Of a stretch of 40,965 nucleotides of DNA, positions 30,286 to 37,562 are shown one piece after another. The notes beneath the pieces are model-generated. The model saw only the letters and a list, made by a program, of their open reading frames with translations. It was not told where the DNA came from and made no database searches. Position 1 is the stretch's first letter; each line of letters begins with the position of its first letter. The stretch comes from a virus. The stretch lies in the IMG/VR virus record IMGVR_UViG_3300010885_041357, positions 1-40,965 of that record, one strand, 5' to 3'. The position numbers and the translations under genes were made by a program.

Positions 30286-30794
30286 TTCTTGAACACATTA
30301 AAAGTGATGACCCTATTCTTAAACAAAAAATAGAATTGTTTGATTTTGGTAATCCACCAATGGATCCGATAGAGTTATCTGTCAACCTATATGAGACATT
30401 GATGTCTTCAAATTATGTTGGGTTATCAGCACCACAAGTTGGTTTACCATATAGGGCATTTGCTCTTCGTTCACAGCCGGGAATCGTATGTTTTAATCCA
30501 CGTATTGTCGATGTTTCTGAAGAGATGGTATTATTAGACGAAGTATGTCTATCTTTTCCTGCACTTACACTTCCGATTAAGCGTCCAAAGAAAATAAAAG
30601 TTAGGTATGCTGAACCAAACAGCATTATTAAAACAGCAACGTTTGATGGAATGACGGCTCGTTATTTTTTACACGAGCTTGACCATTTAGATGGAGTGGT
30701 GTATACTGATAAAGCAAACAAGTTTCATTTGGATAGAGCTTTACGTAAACAGACACAAACTTTAAGACAAGCAAAGGCAAATAATTTATTATGA
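30282..30794 (+). CDS. def: Phage peptide deformylase
   Basis: This 170-residue enzyme would remove the N-formyl group from new proteins. All three family motifs are visible. They are GLSAPQVG (residues 47-54), EVCLSFP with the metal-binding Cys89, and HELDHLDG with H131, E132 and H135. The second motif has Val where most enzymes have Gly (EGCLS), a common phage variant. Phage deformylases are frequent in aquatic myoviruses, where they are thought to support production of proteins during infection. Its start overlaps the gp46 stop, and its own stop overlaps the next start. Confidence 0.92.
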   Translation: MILEHIKSDDPILKQKIELFDFGNPPMDPIELSVNLYETLMSSNYVGLSAPQVGLPYRAFALRSQPGIVCFNPRIVDVSEEMVLLDEVCLSFPALTLPIKRPKKIKVRYAEPNSIIKTATFDGMTARYFLHELDHLDGVVYTDKANKFHLDRALRKQTQTLRQAKANNLL

Positions 30795-31555
30795 GTATAG
30801 TTATATTTGGTAAAGGTAAGGTTGGTATGGCAACAGACCTTACATTAAAAACAGAAGCTGATTTTTATGATCCACAAAAAGGATATGTTATTGAAGATTT
30901 TAGCAAATACAATATTGCTTTTATATGTGTAAGCTCGCTTGTGCATGGTCCTTACGATCATGTATCTATTGAAGATTGTTTAGAAAAGCTTCATAAATCT
31001 AATTTTACTGGTATTGTTGCTATTCGTTGTACTTTGCATCCTTCGTTTATAAAACATTGGGAATACCTTTATGCTAATCTAAAAATTGTTCACTTTCCTG
31101 AGTTTATGAAACAGGGTGATGAGGAGTATTTGGATCAACCATGGATTGTTGTTCTTGGTGGTAAACGCGAACATACAGAACGTCTTGGCAGCTGGTTAAT
31201 ACAGCACAAGTATGGTACAAAAGACCAATTACATTATTGTACATTAGTTGAGAGTGCTTTAATTAAGTTACATCAGAACGCTGGTCTTGCATTAAAGGTT
31301 ACGTATGCAAACATGATGTATAGAGCATGTAAAGAGTATGGTGCTGACTTTGAGACTGTTCGCTTAGGAGCAACAGCAGATGCAAGAGTTGGCCCCGCAC
31401 ATACACAAGTACCAGGTGAGCACGGGTTTGGTTTTGGTGGACATTGTCTTCCAAAAGATGTAAGATGTCTCAATGCAACATTTCCTCAACATGGTTTTTG
31501 GAATGCGCTAATTGAAACAAATGACCATATGAGAGCGTATAATGATTACAAGTAA
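30791..31555 (+). CDS. Short UDP-sugar 6-dehydrogenase-like protein
   Basis: This 254-residue protein resembles UDP-glucose/GDP-mannose dehydrogenases. The NAD-binding loop is reduced to IVIFGKGKVGMATD. The central helix VESALIKLHQNAGLALKVTY holds the family Lys159 and Asn163. The active-site Cys219 lies in FGGHCLPKD, the classic GxCxPKD motif. Normal enzymes have about 400 residues. This one has a shorter Rossmann domain and ends soon after the cysteine motif, so the C-terminal UDP-binding domain is missing. It may act on another substrate or have a changed role. It overlaps queE by 14 bases and the deformylase by four. Confidence 0.75.
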   Translation: MSIVIFGKGKVGMATDLTLKTEADFYDPQKGYVIEDFSKYNIAFICVSSLVHGPYDHVSIEDCLEKLHKSNFTGIVAIRCTLHPSFIKHWEYLYANLKIVHFPEFMKQGDEEYLDQPWIVVLGGKREHTERLGSWLIQHKYGTKDQLHYCTLVESALIKLHQNAGLALKVTYANMMYRACKEYGADFETVRLGATADARVGPAHTQVPGEHGFGFGGHCLPKDVRCLNATFPQHGFWNALIETNDHMRAYNDYK

Positions 31556-32459
31556 ACCAATAGCGTATAGTGAGATATTTCATTCGATTCAGGGTGAGGG
31601 TCACTATACGGGCCGGCCAACAGCTTGGCTAAGATTTTTTCTGTTTAACCTTCAGTGTGATGGCTTCGGCCAGAAGGATCCCACAGATCCATCTACCTAT
31701 ATACTTCCCTATCAACAGATAGATATCTCAAGCATTAAAAAGCTAGAAGATCTTCCTGTGTGGAAGTATGGTTGTGATTCATCTTATTCGTGGTCTGCAA
31801 AGTTTAAACACTTGCAACATAAACATACTGCTGCTGATATTTGCAACCGTATTCGTCAGTCAATGTATCATCCTTCTAATCCAGAAGGAAAGTTTAATAA
31901 GATTAACGGTACAATGCAGCATATGTGCTTTACTGGTGGTGAGCCAATGATGAAGCATGCACAACACGCATCAATTGCTATTATTGATCACTTTGCAACA
32001 GAAGGCGACTTTCCGTTGTTTATGACATGGGAAACAAATGGTACTCAACCATTGACGTCGGAATTTTCTTTATACTTTGGCGAAGCATATCCAGGAGAGG
32101 TATTCTTCTCTGTATCGCCAAAGTTACATACAACATCGGGTGAGAAAGCAGAAGATGCTATCTGTCCCGATATAGTGAAGAGTTATCAGAACCTCTCACC
32201 GCATGGACAGCTAAAGTTTGTGGTCAGTGGTAAACAAGAGTCTTGGGACGAGCTCGAAACAACAATCGAGAAGTTTAGGGAAGCAGGCGTGACATATCCG
32301 GTCTGGATCATGGGTGTTGGTGCAACACTTGAGGCTCAGAAGGGAACCGAAGCAGGTTACATCGGAGAGGCTAAAATTGCTGAAGAAGCATTTAAGCGTG
32401 GTTACAACTATTCCTCAAGAGTGCATGTTCACATCTGGGGAAACACAATGGGAACATAA
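31542..32459 (+). CDS. queE: 7-carboxy-7-deazaguanine synthase, QueE-like radical SAM protein
   Basis: This 305-residue protein would convert 6-carboxytetrahydropterin to 7-carboxy-7-deazaguanine. The opening EIFHSIQGEGHYTGRPTAWL is typical QueE, and CFTGGEPMM (GGEP 132-135) is the SAM-binding motif. Of the three cluster cysteines, Cys39 (NLQC) and Cys78 (GCDSSYSW, after a phage-type insertion) are present. The first is replaced by Phe35 in FFLFNLQCDGF, where CNLxC is expected. A single TGT-to-TTT change explains it. Unless this is a sequencing error, activity would be impaired. It starts inside the previous gene and ends three bases before queD, so the pathway genes are coupled. Confidence 0.85.
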   Translation: MITSKPIAYSEIFHSIQGEGHYTGRPTAWLRFFLFNLQCDGFGQKDPTDPSTYILPYQQIDISSIKKLEDLPVWKYGCDSSYSWSAKFKHLQHKHTAADICNRIRQSMYHPSNPEGKFNKINGTMQHMCFTGGEPMMKHAQHASIAIIDHFATEGDFPLFMTWETNGTQPLTSEFSLYFGEAYPGEVFFSVSPKLHTTSGEKAEDAICPDIVKSYQNLSPHGQLKFVVSGKQESWDELETTIEKFREAGVTYPVWIMGVGATLEAQKGTEAGYIGEAKIAEEAFKRGYNYSSRVHVHIWGNTMGT

Positions 32460-32462
32460 TAT

Positions 32463-32993
32463 ATGTGGGATACAACATCTTTTGGTAATAGACCAATTCA
32501 ATACAAATATACAAGCACGAAAGAGTATCACGATGCCTTTCCGTGTGCATATCGTCAATGGAGAGCAGATAGTCATTGTAACCTAATTCATGGTTACAGT
32601 TTCTCAATGCGGTTCTTCTTTGGAACCAATAATTTAGATGCACGTAATTGGTGTGCGGATTATGGTGGTCTAAAAGAACTAAAAAAGATTTTAGAAGATC
32701 AATTTGACCATACGTTGCTAGTAGCTGAGGATGATCCTGAGCTCGAAATGTACAAAGAACTCCAAGCACGCAACCTTGCTAAGCTAACAATCCTTCCTAA
32801 GCTGGGATGTGAGGGTCTTGCTGATCAACTATACAAGTTTGTTAATGGTGTGTACATTCCTGACTACTGGGGTCAAGGAGAAGCTGATCGTTTGTGGTGT
32901 TACCGTGTAGAGGTACGTGAAACACAAGCAAATATGGCCTTCCGTGAAGGTCACCGTGAATGGAAAGAAGATCTATTTGAAGATGTTCGTTAA
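32463..32993 (+). CDS. queD: 6-carboxytetrahydropterin synthase, QueD-like
   Basis: This 176-residue PTPS-family enzyme would make 6-carboxytetrahydropterin from the FolE product. The zinc region reads SHCNLIHGYSFSMRFFF, where Tyr replaces the second His of the usual HGH. The Cys of the CxxxHG motif is present. Further family features are WCADYGGLKELKKILEDQFD followed by HTLLV, and GCEGLADQLYKFVN in place of the TxENLA helix, and VRETQANMA at the end. The HGY form may be a phage subfamily trait. It lies between queE and a small gene, followed by folE. Its stop overlaps the next start (TAATG). Confidence 0.88.
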   Translation: MWDTTSFGNRPIQYKYTSTKEYHDAFPCAYRQWRADSHCNLIHGYSFSMRFFFGTNNLDARNWCADYGGLKELKKILEDQFDHTLLVAEDDPELEMYKELQARNLAKLTILPKLGCEGLADQLYKFVNGVYIPDYWGQGEADRLWCYRVEVRETQANMAFREGHREWKEDLFEDVR

Positions 32994-33214
32994 TGGCTAC
33001 AACAGGTTTTAAAATGTTTGCTTGGGCACCTGATGGCATTTATGACCATCAGGAAAATCAAGTACGTTACGTTGTAAAAGATGGTTGTGTAAAAGGCCAA
33101 ACTATTCTTTCAAAAAACTGGGTTGACATTGGACCACCAGATCATGTACAATCTGAATTAAAGCAACCATGGGGTACGTTTCCTGACGTGCCTCCTAAAC
33201 CACCAAAGAAGTAG
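32993..33214 (+). CDS. Small protein in the 7-deazaguanine operon, function unknown
   Basis: This 73-residue protein begins in the TAATG overlap with queD. It is aromatic and polar (FKMFAWAPDGIYDHQENQVR), with a Pro/Lys-rich end (FPDVPPKPPKK). No known motif, signal or membrane segment is seen. Being translationally tied to queD and eight bases before folE, it may belong to the modification pathway. That is only a positional inference. Confidence 0.6.
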   Translation: MATTGFKMFAWAPDGIYDHQENQVRYVVKDGCVKGQTILSKNWVDIGPPDHVQSELKQPWGTFPDVPPKPPKK

Positions 33215-33221
33215 GAGTTAT

Positions 33222-33896
33222 ATGGAAAAGACAGACGCAGCACTGGGTGCTAAGGTACACGAACATTTAGTTCATTTTGGGCTTGAGACACCAATGAACT
33301 ATAAGCAGGTTCAGGTAAAGGATGATAAAAAAATTAAAGTAATTGCAAAGCATTTTACTGCAATTATGGAGGAGCTTGGTCTTGACTTGACAGATGACTC
33401 TTTGATAGATACACCTAACCGTGTTGCAAAGATGTATGTACGTGAAATCTTTACAGGATTAAATTATGACAACTTTCCGAAATGTACCCGTATTGAGAAC
33501 AAGATGGGACAGAATAACAGCTTCGTTCTTGAACGCAATGTTAATGTGCAGTCTAATTGTGAGCATCATTTCGTTGTCATTGATGGTAAAGCAACCGTTG
33601 CATACATTCCGAAAAAGACCATTCTTGGTTTATCAAAGCTAAACAGAATTGTTCAGTTTTTCTCTAAGCGTCCACAGGTACAAGAGCGTTTGACAGAGCA
33701 GATTGCTGAGACTATTTCCTACATTACAGAATCTCCTGATGTAGCTGTTTACATTGAAGGTGTTCATTACTGCGTGAAATCACGTGGTATTCAGGACGTA
33801 ACGTCATCGACCATGACGTTAGCAACGCGCGGCGCTTTTGCTGAAAGCAACTCAGAATTACGTCGTGAATTTTTAAACTCTGCAAGGATGAGATAA
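33222..33896 (+). CDS. folE: GTP cyclohydrolase I, FolE-like
   Basis: This 224-residue enzyme catalyses the first step, GTP to 7,8-dihydroneopterin triphosphate. Zinc ligands are Cys113 and His116 in SNCEHHF and Cys184 in HYCVKSRG. The conserved core VAYIPKKTILGLSKLNRIVQ and RPQVQERLTEQIAETI is intact. Length matches bacterial FolE. The ATG follows TAGGAGTTAT. With queD and queE nearby, the product most likely feeds 7-deazaguanine synthesis rather than folate. The stop overlaps the next gene's start (TAATG). Confidence 0.95.
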   Translation: MEKTDAALGAKVHEHLVHFGLETPMNYKQVQVKDDKKIKVIAKHFTAIMEELGLDLTDDSLIDTPNRVAKMYVREIFTGLNYDNFPKCTRIENKMGQNNSFVLERNVNVQSNCEHHFVVIDGKATVAYIPKKTILGLSKLNRIVQFFSKRPQVQERLTEQIAETISYITESPDVAVYIEGVHYCVKSRGIQDVTSSTMTLATRGAFAESNSELRREFLNSARMR

Positions 33897-34258
33897 TGGC
33901 AAAAGTTTATCTCTGCCAGTTTACAGATAAGCAAACTGGCAAGTTCTTTTTTAAATTTGGACATACGTCTAAAGATGATGTGCTCGATCGATTTGATGTT
34001 AAATATGATCCTCGTTATGGAGATTTTGACATTAAAGCTATTTGTAGTATTCGTGGTGACATTAAATGGTGTCAACAAATCGAAGAAATATTTAAAGCAT
34101 TATATCCAAAAAATATTTGGTTGGAAGAATATCTTGGTGATGAAAGAACGTGGGATGCGTTGTCTGGTATTACCGAGATTGTCCATTTAACAGAACAAGA
34201 GTATAATAAGGTCCGCGTTGCATTTTATAAAGTGAGAGATATACAATATGGAAAATAA
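33896..34258 (+). CDS. Putative GIY-YIG-fold small protein (T5orf172/Mug113-like)
   Basis: This 120-residue protein has KVYLCQFTDKQTGKFFFKFG followed by HTSKDDVLDRF. The pairing of a YxxxF-type strand with a KxGHT strand and a downstream Arg is the pattern of short GIY-YIG-like domains such as T5orf172/Mug113. A Glu in QQIEEIFKALYP could be the metal ligand. Typical GIY and YIG triplets are not exact, so a nuclease role is uncertain. It starts in TAATG after folE and overlaps the next gene by 11 bases, inside the DNA-modification block. Confidence 0.5.
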   Translation: MAKVYLCQFTDKQTGKFFFKFGHTSKDDVLDRFDVKYDPRYGDFDIKAICSIRGDIKWCQQIEEIFKALYPKNIWLEEYLGDERTWDALSGITEIVHLTEQEYNKVRVAFYKVRDIQYGK

Positions 34259-34628
34259 AAGTTTTATATGGGTGACGTTTCAGAAAGAAGGTATACACAA
34301 GTATCCACAAGCTGCTACTGATCCAAAGCTAGCAACGGGTGATTGGCTTGATGTTAGTTTCTTAGGTACACCTCATCGCCATATCTTTCACTTCCGTGTT
34401 GAGATGGAAGTATTCCATGATGATCGTGATGTTGAATTTATTCAAGCAAAACGTATTATGGAACGTTGGTTTAGCGATGGTACACTAGCACTAGATTACA
34501 AGTCATGTGAAATGATTGCAAAGGATCTTTATGCAAAGTGTATTAGCACGTGGCCAGATCGGGACTATGTAATTGAAGTCTCAGAAGACGGTGAGAATGG
34601 TTGCCGTATGTATTTTAACAAGGTTTAA
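34248..34628 (+). CDS. Second PTPS/QueD-fold protein next to dpdA
   Basis: This 126-residue protein looks like a divergent tunnelling-fold (PTPS/QueD) enzyme. It has HRHIFHFRVEMEVFHDD, in which HxH followed by alternating strand residues matches the HGH zinc motif of QueD. Then come VEFIQAKRIMERWF (like the DFxxLK helix), YKSCEMIAKDLYAKC (like the TxExLA helix), and VIEVSEDGENGCRMYF (like the final VxVxET strand). The reading is by motif order, not overall identity. It overlaps the previous gene and ends two bases before dpdA. A pterin or 7-deazaguanine tailoring role is plausible. A merely structural relative is also possible. Confidence 0.5.
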   Translation: MENKSFIWVTFQKEGIHKYPQAATDPKLATGDWLDVSFLGTPHRHIFHFRVEMEVFHDDRDVEFIQAKRIMERWFSDGTLALDYKSCEMIAKDLYAKCISTWPDRDYVIEVSEDGENGCRMYFNKV

Positions 34629-34630
34629 TA

Positions 34631-35476
34631 ATGATTAATTTTTGTCATATCAGTCCATCAGCTTATCTTCCTAAGTATACAAAAGATAACGGTGCTCATT
34701 TGATTCTTGCTCACCTTGTTGAAGAAGATCCCACATACAGGGACTTCTATGCAAGAATGTCAAATCGTGAATATAAGATTATGGACAATAGTGCGTTTGA
34801 GATGTTTAAACTTGGTCTACCAATGTATGAGCCAGGTAAACTAATTGAGATGGGCAACGCCTGTCAAACAGACTGTATTGTTCTTTCTGACTATCCCAAG
34901 CAGCCTTCATATGTAACTGTCAATGCAGCAAAGAAACTGATTCCTGAATTTAAAGCGAATGGATTTGATACATTCTTTGTTCCTCAAAGTGAACTAGGTG
35001 ACATGCATGATCTGGTCAATGCTATTGAGTGGGCATTGCACAATCCAGATATTAATTTGATTGGTCTTTCCATTCTGTCTACACCAATTGCTTGTGGTGT
35101 TGATGAAACAACTTTTGAGGGTGGTAAACGTAGTGATGCATATAAGATGCAACGTTACCTTTCGCGTCTTGCAGTATTTCGTGAATTGGAAAAACGTAAC
35201 TTGCTTACTAGCTTAGCAAAGAAGCGGTTCCATTGTCTTGGTATGGTTGATGGTCCAAAAGAGATTGACTTGTTACGTGAATATCACGAGTTTATTTTTA
35301 CATGGGATTCAAGTGCTGCTGTTTGGGCTGGTATCAACGGTATTCGTTTTGATAATTCGCCAACAGGGCTAATGAATGGTAAATTTGAAAAAGAAGTTGA
35401 CTTTCACCACAAAGAAGAGCATAATACATTAGCCGTTTACGACAACATTAATTATATCAATTCTCTTTGTGGATAA
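34631..35476 (+). CDS. dpdA: DpdA-like DNA 7-deazaguanine transglycosylase
   Basis: This 281-residue protein resembles the TGT-like DpdA family, which swaps guanine in DNA for a 7-deazaguanine base. Matching features of the TIM-barrel enzyme are a conserved Asp in IMDNSAFEMFKLG (D52) and NLIGLSILSTP. The late HCLGMVDGPKEIDLLREY is followed by FTWDSSAAVWAG (D226 as candidate nucleophile). It is shorter than tRNA TGT (about 370), as in phage DpdA versions, and lacks the C-terminal CxCxxC zinc site of tRNA TGT. The neighbouring folE, queD and queE supply the base precursor, which strongly supports the call. Confidence 0.75.
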   Translation: MINFCHISPSAYLPKYTKDNGAHLILAHLVEEDPTYRDFYARMSNREYKIMDNSAFEMFKLGLPMYEPGKLIEMGNACQTDCIVLSDYPKQPSYVTVNAAKKLIPEFKANGFDTFFVPQSELGDMHDLVNAIEWALHNPDINLIGLSILSTPIACGVDETTFEGGKRSDAYKMQRYLSRLAVFRELEKRNLLTSLAKKRFHCLGMVDGPKEIDLLREYHEFIFTWDSSAAVWAGINGIRFDNSPTGLMNGKFEKEVDFHHKEEHNTLAVYDNINYINSLCG

Positions 35477-35477
35477 A

Positions 35478-36065
35478 ATGAAACTGAAGGTTATAGCATT
35501 GACTGGACCCAAGGGATCCGGTAAGGATACTGTTGGACAATTAATCAAGCAGTATTTTATTGCACCTGGTTGGAGTGCTCATACAATTGCTTTTGCCGAT
35601 CCAATTAAGACAGTGGTTAGGGATTTGTTTGTATTTGAGACAATGCAAGAGTATGATGATTTCAAGAGAACTACTTGTAATTTCAGTTTACCTAAAACAA
35701 TAACAAGAGACATGCAGCTTTACCAAGTCGAAGGTAGACATCTTGTTCGTGAGATTGGTATGCTAATGCGTAAATATGATGACAAGCAATTTACCAAGTA
35801 TGTTGTTGATGAAATTGAATATCGTCCCGACGATGTTTGGGTTGTAACGGATTTACGTTTTGATAATGAGTGGTTAGTGCTTAAACAGTTAGGTGCTAAG
35901 GTAATTAACATTAAGCGACCTAATTATGAATTTGATGGACATATTACAGAGCGTGGGTTTAATGAGAGCCTTGTTGACTATCAACTGCTAAATGATGGAG
36001 ACTTGGCGTATCTTAAAACAAGAGTTAATAGTATTATGGATAGTATTATGAAGGAGTGGGTATGA
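35478..36065 (+). CDS. Deoxynucleoside monophosphate kinase, T4 gp1-like
   Basis: This 195-residue protein starts MKLKVIALTGPKGSGKDTVG. The P-loop is GPKGSGKDT at residues 10-18. Downstream, IAFADPIKTVVRDLF and VVTDLRFDNEWLVLKQLGAK are typical of phage dNMP kinases, and INIKRPNYEFDGHITERGFN carries Arg and Glu residues near the substrate. A GTG at 35469 gives three extra residues, but the ATG at 35478, one base after the dpdA stop, fits the family start better. The enzyme would turn host-derived dNMPs to dNDPs for phage DNA synthesis. It overlaps the next gene by ATGA. Confidence 0.85.
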   Translation: MKLKVIALTGPKGSGKDTVGQLIKQYFIAPGWSAHTIAFADPIKTVVRDLFVFETMQEYDDFKRTTCNFSLPKTITRDMQLYQVEGRHLVREIGMLMRKYDDKQFTKYVVDEIEYRPDDVWVVTDLRFDNEWLVLKQLGAKVINIKRPNYEFDGHITERGFNESLVDYQLLNDGDLAYLKTRVNSIMDSIMKEWV

Positions 36066-36682
36066 AGCATATTATGGGGCCTGAAAGTAGATCAACGCTA
36101 TCTAATGTTCAGGAAGGTGATGTTCAACCTAATGCTGTTGATCTTAGACTAGGCAAAGTCTTTAAAATGTCACAATCAACATTTATAATTGATGAGAAAC
36201 AAAAGGTACATCGGGGTTCGTATGAGATGAAAGCCGATCCTCTTGGCTATTACAATCTACCAGAAGGCCATTACGAAGTAGTGATGGAAAATATGATTGT
36301 AGTAGGTGATAATGAAGCTGGATGGGTTATTACAAGGTCTACATTAAACCGTAACGGCGTGTTCCTTACATCGGGGCTCTATGACTCTGGTTATGACGGT
36401 GTAATGGCGGGTGTAATGCATGTTACGTGTGGCCCTATGCGTATTCAAAAGGGTACCCGTATTGGTCAATACCTTTGCTTTAATGCAGAAGCATTGCACA
36501 AGTATGAAGGTAGCTATGGTCGTGGTAAACAACACGATATCAAATACCAAACCGAAGCATACAATGCACAGCAAGATCTAAAGGCTCTTGGCATTGATGT
36601 TGATCCAGCACTTGAAGTAGAAAAACCACCAGAACCCATTAAACGTAAACCAGGCCGTCCATTTGGGACAACAAAGAAATAA
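36062..36682 (+). CDS. dUTPase/dCTP deaminase-family nucleotide hydrolase with AT-hook-like tail
   Basis: This 206-residue protein has the superfamily motifs in order. They are NAVDLRLG (residues 24-31), ITRSTLNRNGVF (90-101), GLYDSGYDGVMAGVMHV (105-121) and MRIQKGTRIGQYLCF (126-140). These support the trimeric beta barrel that binds dUTP or dCTP. I cannot decide from sequence between deaminase and pyrophosphatase. The last 15 residues end in KRKPGRPFGTTKK, which resembles an AT-hook DNA-binding motif and is unusual for the family. AAGGAG sets the start at 36062. A GTG six bases upstream lies within that site. Confidence 0.78.
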   Translation: MKHIMGPESRSTLSNVQEGDVQPNAVDLRLGKVFKMSQSTFIIDEKQKVHRGSYEMKADPLGYYNLPEGHYEVVMENMIVVGDNEAGWVITRSTLNRNGVFLTSGLYDSGYDGVMAGVMHVTCGPMRIQKGTRIGQYLCFNAEALHKYEGSYGRGKQHDIKYQTEAYNAQQDLKALGIDVDPALEVEKPPEPIKRKPGRPFGTTKK

Positions 36683-36705: not shown

Positions 36706-37227
36706 ATGTCATTTGAAATTAAAGTACCTATTGGCGAATTGCAGAAAAAGAAACTATTTGTAGCAACACCAATGTATGGTGGTGCTTGTGCAGGTATGTA
36801 CACGCGTTCTATTGCTGATTTAGCCGCTATTTGTGCTAAGTATGAGATCCCTCTTCAGCTCTATTACTTGTTTAATGAGTCGTTGATTACTCGTGCACGT
36901 AACTATTGCGTAGATGAGTTTTTACGTAGCGATGCAACACACTTGATGTTTATCGATAGCGATATTGGTTTTAACCCACAAGACGTTATTGCATTACTTG
37001 CTCTGCAAACTGATGAGAGTGAATATGACATTATCGGTGGTCCATATCCTAAGAAATGCATTAGCTGGGAAAAGATCAAGATTGCTGTTGACAAAGGCTT
37101 TCTGATGAGGATCCTAACAACCTTGAGAAGTTTGTTGGCGACTATGTGTTTAACCCTAAAGGTGGCGCAAAAGAGATCCCAATCAACCAACCAGTTGAGG
37201 TTATGGAGCTTGGTACTGGCTTTATGA
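36706..37227 (+). CDS. Glycosyltransferase-like protein, N-terminal part (frameshifted)
   Basis: The true sequence runs from MSFEIKVPIGELQKKKLFVA to about residue 132 (IKIAVDKGF). It is a GT-A-like domain with TPMYGGACAGMYTRS, NESLITRARNYCVDEF and a DxD motif in THLMFIDSDIGF. After base 37101 this frame turns to LMRILTTLRSLL, which is not family-like. The neighbouring frame reads ADEDPNNLEKFVGDYVFN, which continues the protein. One missing base (likely G in GGCTTT-CTGATG) separates the two parts. The intact product would be about 285 residues, ending at 37562. The sugar and acceptor are unknown. In this block the target could be DNA, a virion protein or a host structure. Confidence 0.8.
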   Translation: MSFEIKVPIGELQKKKLFVATPMYGGACAGMYTRSIADLAAICAKYEIPLQLYYLFNESLITRARNYCVDEFLRSDATHLMFIDSDIGFNPQDVIALLALQTDESEYDIIGGPYPKKCISWEKIKIAVDKGFLMRILTTLRSLLATMCLTLKVAQKRSQSTNQLRLWSLVLAL

Positions 37228-37562
37228 TGATTCGTCGCAAGACGTTTGATGTGTACAAAGAAGCATATCCTCACCTTTCTTACAAACCAGATCATGTGCG
37301 TACTGCAGCGTTTGATGGTTCGCGTGAGATCCATGCATACTTTGACTGTATCATTGATCCAGTAAGCAAACGTTATTTGTCTGAAGACTATATGTTCTGC
37401 TACAACACAGAAAAAGCTGGTATGAAGGTTTGGCTGTGCCCATGGATGAGTATGCAACACGTTGGTAGCTACAACTTTGGTGGTAGTCTTGCTGACTTGG
37501 CTGCAATTGGTGCACCAGCAACAGCTGATGCAGGTATGCTTCAAAAAGGTAAAAAGAAATGA
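37146..37562 (+). CDS. Glycosyltransferase-like protein, C-terminal part (frameshifted)
   Basis: The ATG-started frame gives 138 residues, but coding in this frame actually runs back to about 37102. It starts inside the gene at MFNPKGGAKEIPINQPVEVM and includes ELGTGFMMIRRKTFDVYKEA, YFDCIIDPVSKRYLSEDYMF (an acidic motif common in GT-A enzymes), and MKVWLCPWMSMQHVGSYNFG. There is no ribosome binding site before 37146. It completes the enzyme begun at 36706. The end overlaps the sliding clamp gene by ATGA, so a frame loss here might also affect clamp translation. Confidence 0.8.
   Translation: MFNPKGGAKEIPINQPVEVMELGTGFMMIRRKTFDVYKEAYPHLSYKPDHVRTAAFDGSREIHAYFDCIIDPVSKRYLSEDYMFCYNTEKAGMKVWLCPWMSMQHVGSYNFGGSLADLAAIGAPATADAGMLQKGKKK

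Follow-up and report, generated by a model that had tools for sequence, protein, structure and literature searches.

A 7-deazaguanine gene module without queC and with a QueD-fold companion protein in a freshwater T4-like phage

Gene content of the locus

A block of genes for the synthesis of 7-deazaguanine bases, closed by a gene for a short protein with the fold of tRNA-guanine transglycosylases (TGT), was analyzed in the IMG/VR virus entry IMGVR_UViG_3300010885_041357. The entry, used here at its whole length of 40,965 bases (the window), comes from a freshwater T4-like virus of bacteria. Since it encodes the tail sheath, portal, major head protein, helicase and sliding clamp that mark T4-like phages, it must hold only a fraction of a larger genome. 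The genes of the module, taken with exact coordinates and frames from the six-frame list of open reading frames (ORFs), are all on one strand and overlap or stand at most 8 nucleotides apart, as a preliminary description of this DNA had noted. The features of the locus are the following:

30791..31555, + strand: short nucleotide-sugar (UDP-glucose) dehydrogenase-like protein, an optional member (PF00984, E=2e-19; phrog_9148, E=3e-34)
31542..32459, + strand: QueE-like 7-carboxy-7-deazaguanine synthase, a radical S-adenosylmethionine (SAM) enzyme (phrog_2076, E=1e-47)
31644..31646, + strand: TTT codon for Phe35 at the first radical-SAM cysteine position of QueE (alignment and cysteine count)
32463..32993, + strand: QueD-like 6-carboxytetrahydropterin synthase with the motif CxxxHGY (PTPS PF01242, E=1e-13; phrog_2389, E=6e-36)
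32993..33214, + strand: small protein, partly conserved (38 loci; no match in Pfam)
33222..33896, + strand: FolE, GTP cyclohydrolase I (NF006824, E=2e-90, above its cut-off; TIGR00063, E=7e-67)
33896..34258, + strand: small protein, variably present (29 loci; no match in Pfam)
34248..34628, + strand: p34248, QueD-fold (T-fold) protein of 126 residues, keeping residues for zinc and for anchoring a purine, proposed to process 7-carboxy-7-deazaguanine (phrog_17812, E=4e-31; AlphaFold model)
34631..35476, + strand: short TGT-fold protein of 281 residues, proposed DNA guanine transglycosylase (DpdA) (AlphaFold model; PDB fold search)
35469..36065, + strand: deoxynucleoside monophosphate kinase, conserved neighbour (PF21448, E=4e-18; phrog_139)
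36056..36682, + strand: dCTP deaminase/dUTPase-like protein, conserved neighbour (PF22769, E=4e-13; recurring gene order)

QueE, QueD and FolE had been proposed as three successive enzymes of one pathway, and profile matches in PHROG, Pfam and NCBIfam bear this out. The locus is classed as a predicted phage 7-deazaguanine modification system of a subtype without queC.

Conservation of the module

In IMG/VR, 216 relatives of the TGT-like protein were found, and 80 loci were retrieved for comparison. Across them the order gp47, gp46, deformylase, queE, queD, folE, p34248, TGT-like gene, kinase and dCTP deaminase recurs, at protein identities down to about 50%. When presence was counted in the 30 loci whose upstream sequence spans at least 9 kb, p34248 was found in all 30, folE in 29, queE in 28 and queD in 26. 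For the genes of the module, the ratio of nonsynonymous to synonymous substitution (dN/dS) was 0.03-0.10 wherever synonymous change was unsaturated, indicating purifying selection. The preservation of this order in dozens of divergent phage contigs, together with the low dN/dS values, is far beyond chance. Of the four interleaved or adjoining genes suggested earlier as possible base-tailoring genes, only that at 34248 is universally linked to the module. The dehydrogenase-like gene (30791) occurs in a minority of the loci, 18 in number, and the genes at 32993 and 33896, which show no family match, are absent from some of them.

In some loci, L010 among them, folE is replaced in place by a distant homologue (L010:8691, 31% identity). 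A 3-kb contig binned as Heimdallarchaeota (L172), probably viral, carries the p34248 and TGT-like genes together.

p34248 and the accompanying QueD

The most conserved protein of the module is p34248, whose identity often lies at 80-90% in cases where that of the TGT-like protein is 55-70%. It had been left unassigned, but its AlphaFold model (predicted local distance difference test, pLDDT, 94) has E. coli QueD as its best PDB match (TM score 0.70), and the protein matches phrog_17812. Its invariant residues are H17, H43, H45, E88 and E113; we take the three histidines to fall on the zinc histidines of E. coli QueD, and E113 on its pterin-anchoring glutamate. By motif positions, however, a leucine stands in p34248 where E. 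coli QueD has the catalytic Cys27, and the Asp-His segment is missing. As QueD is defined by these catalytic residues, p34248 is QueD-like in fold and is not filed as QueD; their loss predicts a different reaction. Nor is it a plain replacement of QueD, an explanation we rejected since a PTPS match above the cut-off is present in 16 of 17 records; in the 17th, phage D479, a tandem QueD of the KVP40 type falls just under it.

The QueD encoded beside p34248 is itself unusual: 27 of 27 full-length relatives have CxxxHGY in place of CxxxHGH, as do phages phiST, MA9V-3, ACP17, X1, Phosso and BUCT-ZZ01. It retains the Cys and Asp-His and loses zinc ligands that p34248 keeps, so that the losses of the two proteins are complementary. 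In this sample the HGY type was seen only alongside p34248. Such a pattern could mean that p34248 is a subunit of 6-carboxytetrahydropterin (CPH4) synthase that supplies a metal site to the zinc-ligand-poor QueD, the inserted base then being 7-carboxy-7-deazaguanine (CDG) itself. The tandem fusions of two T-folds that form QueD in KVP40 and nt-1 would fit this idea. We nevertheless consider it improbable, given that Bakedbeans, Ahp1 and D479 have p34248 with a zinc-intact or tandem QueD and that PA5oct has both QueD types.

Homologues of p34248 lie beside folE, queD or queE in Cellulophaga phiST, Chryseobacterium MA9V-3, Acidovorax ACP17, Xanthomonas X1 and Synechococcus BUCT-ZZ01. In Pseudomonas PA5oct and Sinorhizobium Phosso the homologue has folE or queE in its vicinity. 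The protein found nearby in ACP17, X1 and BUCT-ZZ01 is a different one, phrog_10773 (in X1 annotated as queuine tRNA-ribosyltransferase), which indicates that p34248 travels with the base-making genes and not with one particular transglycosylase. In the unrelated large phages PA5oct (L112), ACP17 (L113) and X1 (L114), glycosyltransferase-like genes adjoin p34248, hinting at a glycosylated 7-deazaguanine. The window itself has a glycosyltransferase-like gene at 36706-37562, broken into two overlapping ORFs by a small length difference and intact in two near-identical records.

In three loci from Amycolatopsis and Streptomyces (L166, L167 and L169), p34248 occurs with queD and folE, and in Amycolatopsis with queE as well. 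The possibility that p34248 marks an antibiotic cluster in Amycolatopsis was rejected for L166, because the terminase, portal and prohead protease genes that follow identify this locus as a prophage.

The short TGT-fold protein

The 281-residue product of the gene at 34631 had been described as TGT/DpdA-like, an assignment that was to fall if no TGT or DpdA profile matched it. Indeed, no match was found in Pfam or NCBIfam, and in PHROG only the unnamed phrog_19058 was hit, weakly (E=3e-4). Sequence profiles gave no match in the PDB, and profile comparison with the single sequences of E. coli TGT or KVP40 DpdA2 was not significant. The non-significant alignment with E. coli TGT set MDNSAFEMF and IVLSDYP against TDSGGFQVF and IVMIFDECTP. 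The Pfam TGT profile PF01702, however, matched nothing in 16 complete or long records, and since it misses even KVP40 and nt-1 it is uninformative for these phage enzymes.

The fold, together with the homologues in CP220 and phiST, overrules the missing profile match. An AlphaFold model built from 36 sequences (pLDDT 93) was searched against the PDB, and all of the 50 best matches listed were tRNA-guanine transglycosylases, with E down to 7e-8, probability 1.0 and TM scores of about 0.5. Among viral models it matched phiST (E=3e-16) and several annotated queuine tRNA-ribosyltransferases. A profile of the family finds one protein of phage CP220 (CPT_0056, E=3e-9), with conserved motifs. The protein thus belongs to the TGT superfamily at the level of fold, and to a short type shared with CP220; a sequence relation to DpdA2 of KVP40 and nt-1 was looked for and not found. 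In 13 TGT-like sequences, including those of phiST, MA9V-3 and CP220, D52 and D226 never vary, and at least 90% show D87 and Q119. These four residues may correspond to the general-acid, recognition and nucleophile positions of bacterial TGT. Profiles and fold together support the earlier view of a 7-deazaguanine pathway feeding a TGT/DpdA-like enzyme.

Such an enzyme could also act on tRNA, the genes then serving to raise queuosine precursors for the host, a role proposed for phages with pathway genes and without DpdA (PMC6884629). In this module the TGT-fold partner is a short protein with a relative in CP220, one of the Campylobacter phages reported to have modified DNA. Moreover, CDG is not known to be a TGT substrate for tRNA. 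We therefore infer that DNA is the target and regard a role in tRNA as very improbable.

Distribution of QueC

No queC was found in the 40,965-base record (the preliminary description had seen none in the block itself), although absence from the whole phage cannot be read from a fragment. We looked for it among the relatives. The queC profile matched none of the 80 loci, and nothing in G013, a near-identical contig that reaches some 20 kb past the window. No QueC above the cut-off was detected in two contigs of 202 and 223 kb or in nine complete phages that carry p34248 (Ahp1, RHph_I1_18, Bakedbeans, phiST, PA5oct, ACP17, Phosso, BUCT-ZZ01 and MA9V-3). True QueC, at 156-183 bits, was found in CP220 (156), KVP40 and nt-1, all three without p34248. 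The two genes are mutually exclusive in this sample.

Divergent QueC-like PP-loop proteins were identified in the relatives G001, G020 and G022 and in phage D479. Those of G020 (L173) and G022 (L174) have intact SGG(L/V)DS and C-terminal CxxC motifs, and G020 has two neighbouring copies. A queC or divergent PP-loop gene elsewhere in the genome could accordingly make 7-cyano-7-deazaguanine (preQ0) or couple CDG to another group. The lack of QueC above the cut-off in the large contigs and the complete p34248 phages argues against this, as does KVP40, which has a divergent copy in addition to its true QueC, and we hold this explanation to be quite unlikely.

Alternatively, the phage could make CDG and leave its conversion to preQ0 to the QueC of the host, the TGT-like enzyme inserting preQ0 (as 2'-deoxy-7-cyano-7-deazaguanosine, dPreQ0) and p34248 being accessory. 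Hosts often have QueC, since the profile matches all 14 control genomes (12 above the cut-off), and the queC-less phage Bipper was placed in the group of dPreQ0 and 2'-deoxy-7-amido-7-deazaguanosine (dADG) by Hutinet 2019 (PMC6884629). Yet p34248 and queC exclude each other, and a host with QueC could supply CDG too; three genes are kept and only the fourth is dropped, repeatedly and in unrelated lineages. On balance a dependence on host QueC seems rather unlikely. The insertion of the carboxy form or a derivative, the third of the options raised previously, is thus favoured by the complete relatives without queC.

QueE and its missing cysteine

The QueE of the window has a feature absent from the earlier account. 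At position 35 it has Phe instead of the first cysteine of the radical-SAM cluster, whereas the 52 other sequences covering the site have Cys. The same Phe, with an identical TTT codon, is found in a near-identical contig from a separate assembly (IMGVR_UViG_3300009151_000163, L007), so neither of these two proteins has the three cluster cysteines of radical-SAM QueE. As QueE is otherwise under strong purifying selection, Phe35 would be either recent in origin or an assembly artefact common to both contigs. If it is real, the phage may rely on its host at the QueE step for the supply of CDG. In the T4-like QueEs analyzed here and in that of nt-1, an insertion of about 30-40 residues separates the second cysteine from the third. 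The dehydrogenase-like gene lies beside QueE, and CP220 also has a homologue near its QueE.

Proposed pathway

We propose that FolE, QueD and QueE convert GTP to CDG. As QueC is lacking, the base would not be carried on to preQ0. Instead CDG would become the substrate of p34248, most likely losing its carboxylate to yield 7-deazaguanine, and the short TGT-fold enzyme would exchange this product for guanine in phage DNA, which would then be shielded from host nucleases. The route appears to be one step shorter than usual, with a little-known helper enzyme. We give this reading a probability of about 0.6. CDG is used without QueC in tubercidin synthesis, for which a UbiD decarboxylase has been proposed (PMC6112128); chemistry downstream of CDG is therefore plausible, though the enzyme differs.

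Several observations weigh against the proposal. The UbiD-type decarboxylase suggested for the tubercidin route is unrelated to p34248. The QueD found here, judged from its motif, would be without one or two zinc ligands, and the QueE of the window may be dead, since Phe35 is expected to abolish activity. Phage X1, a carrier of p34248, has a QueC match below the cut-off, to which the divergent PP-loop proteins of relatives must be added, and just 41 kb of the genome of this phage is known.

A bolder version, tentative and with the odds well against it, is that p34248 joins the zinc-poor HGY-type QueD in a two-part T-fold enzyme diverting CDG from preQ0 in a freshwater T4-like clade and in several large glycosyltransferase-adding phages, whose DNA would contain an undescribed unsubstituted or hypermodified 7-deazaguanine. 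The presence of p34248 with the absence of QueC provides a clear sequence marker of phages with a predicted non-preQ0 7-deazaguanine, and this marker links uncultivated T4-like phages with cultured ones that can be measured directly.

Comparison with known systems

The Vibrio phages KVP40 and nt-1 resemble the phage of the window in being T4-like, in encoding FolE, QueD and QueE, and in the QueE insertion before the last cysteine. They differ in their 459-residue DpdA2, which shows no detectable sequence similarity to the short protein, and in having true QueC, QueF and a tandem QueD and no p34248; the DNA of nt-1 contains mainly dPreQ0 (PMC6884629). CP220 shares the homologous short TGT-fold protein (CPT_0056), a P-loop protein encoded after it, and QueE, with a dehydrogenase-like homologue (CPT_0019) two genes after it (29% identity, E=1e-17). 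In contrast to the window, it has true QueC and no p34248, and its genes are spread through the genome. The DNA of CP220 is reported to be modified with dADG, and high levels of this modification are reported for Campylobacter phages that have pathway genes and no DpdA recognised in the 2019 survey (PMC6884629).

A literature search for DpdL or DpdA3 returned nothing relevant. Cui et al. 2023 (NAR 51:9214) reportedly found phage DNA containing 7-deazaguanine or its 7-carboxy form, and described DpdL, proposed to decarboxylate CDG, together with a DpdA3 subfamily. On this description p34248 is a likely candidate for DpdL, and the CP220-type short TGT at 34631 a likely candidate for DpdA3.

Cellulophaga phiST carries QueD, QueE, FolE, a p34248 homologue and a TGT-like protein in one block, and no QueC, and the model of its TGT-like protein is the one matched by that of the window. 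It belongs, however, to another phage lineage, MazG-like and P-loop genes are interleaved in its block, and its TGT-like protein is only 22% identical to that of the window.

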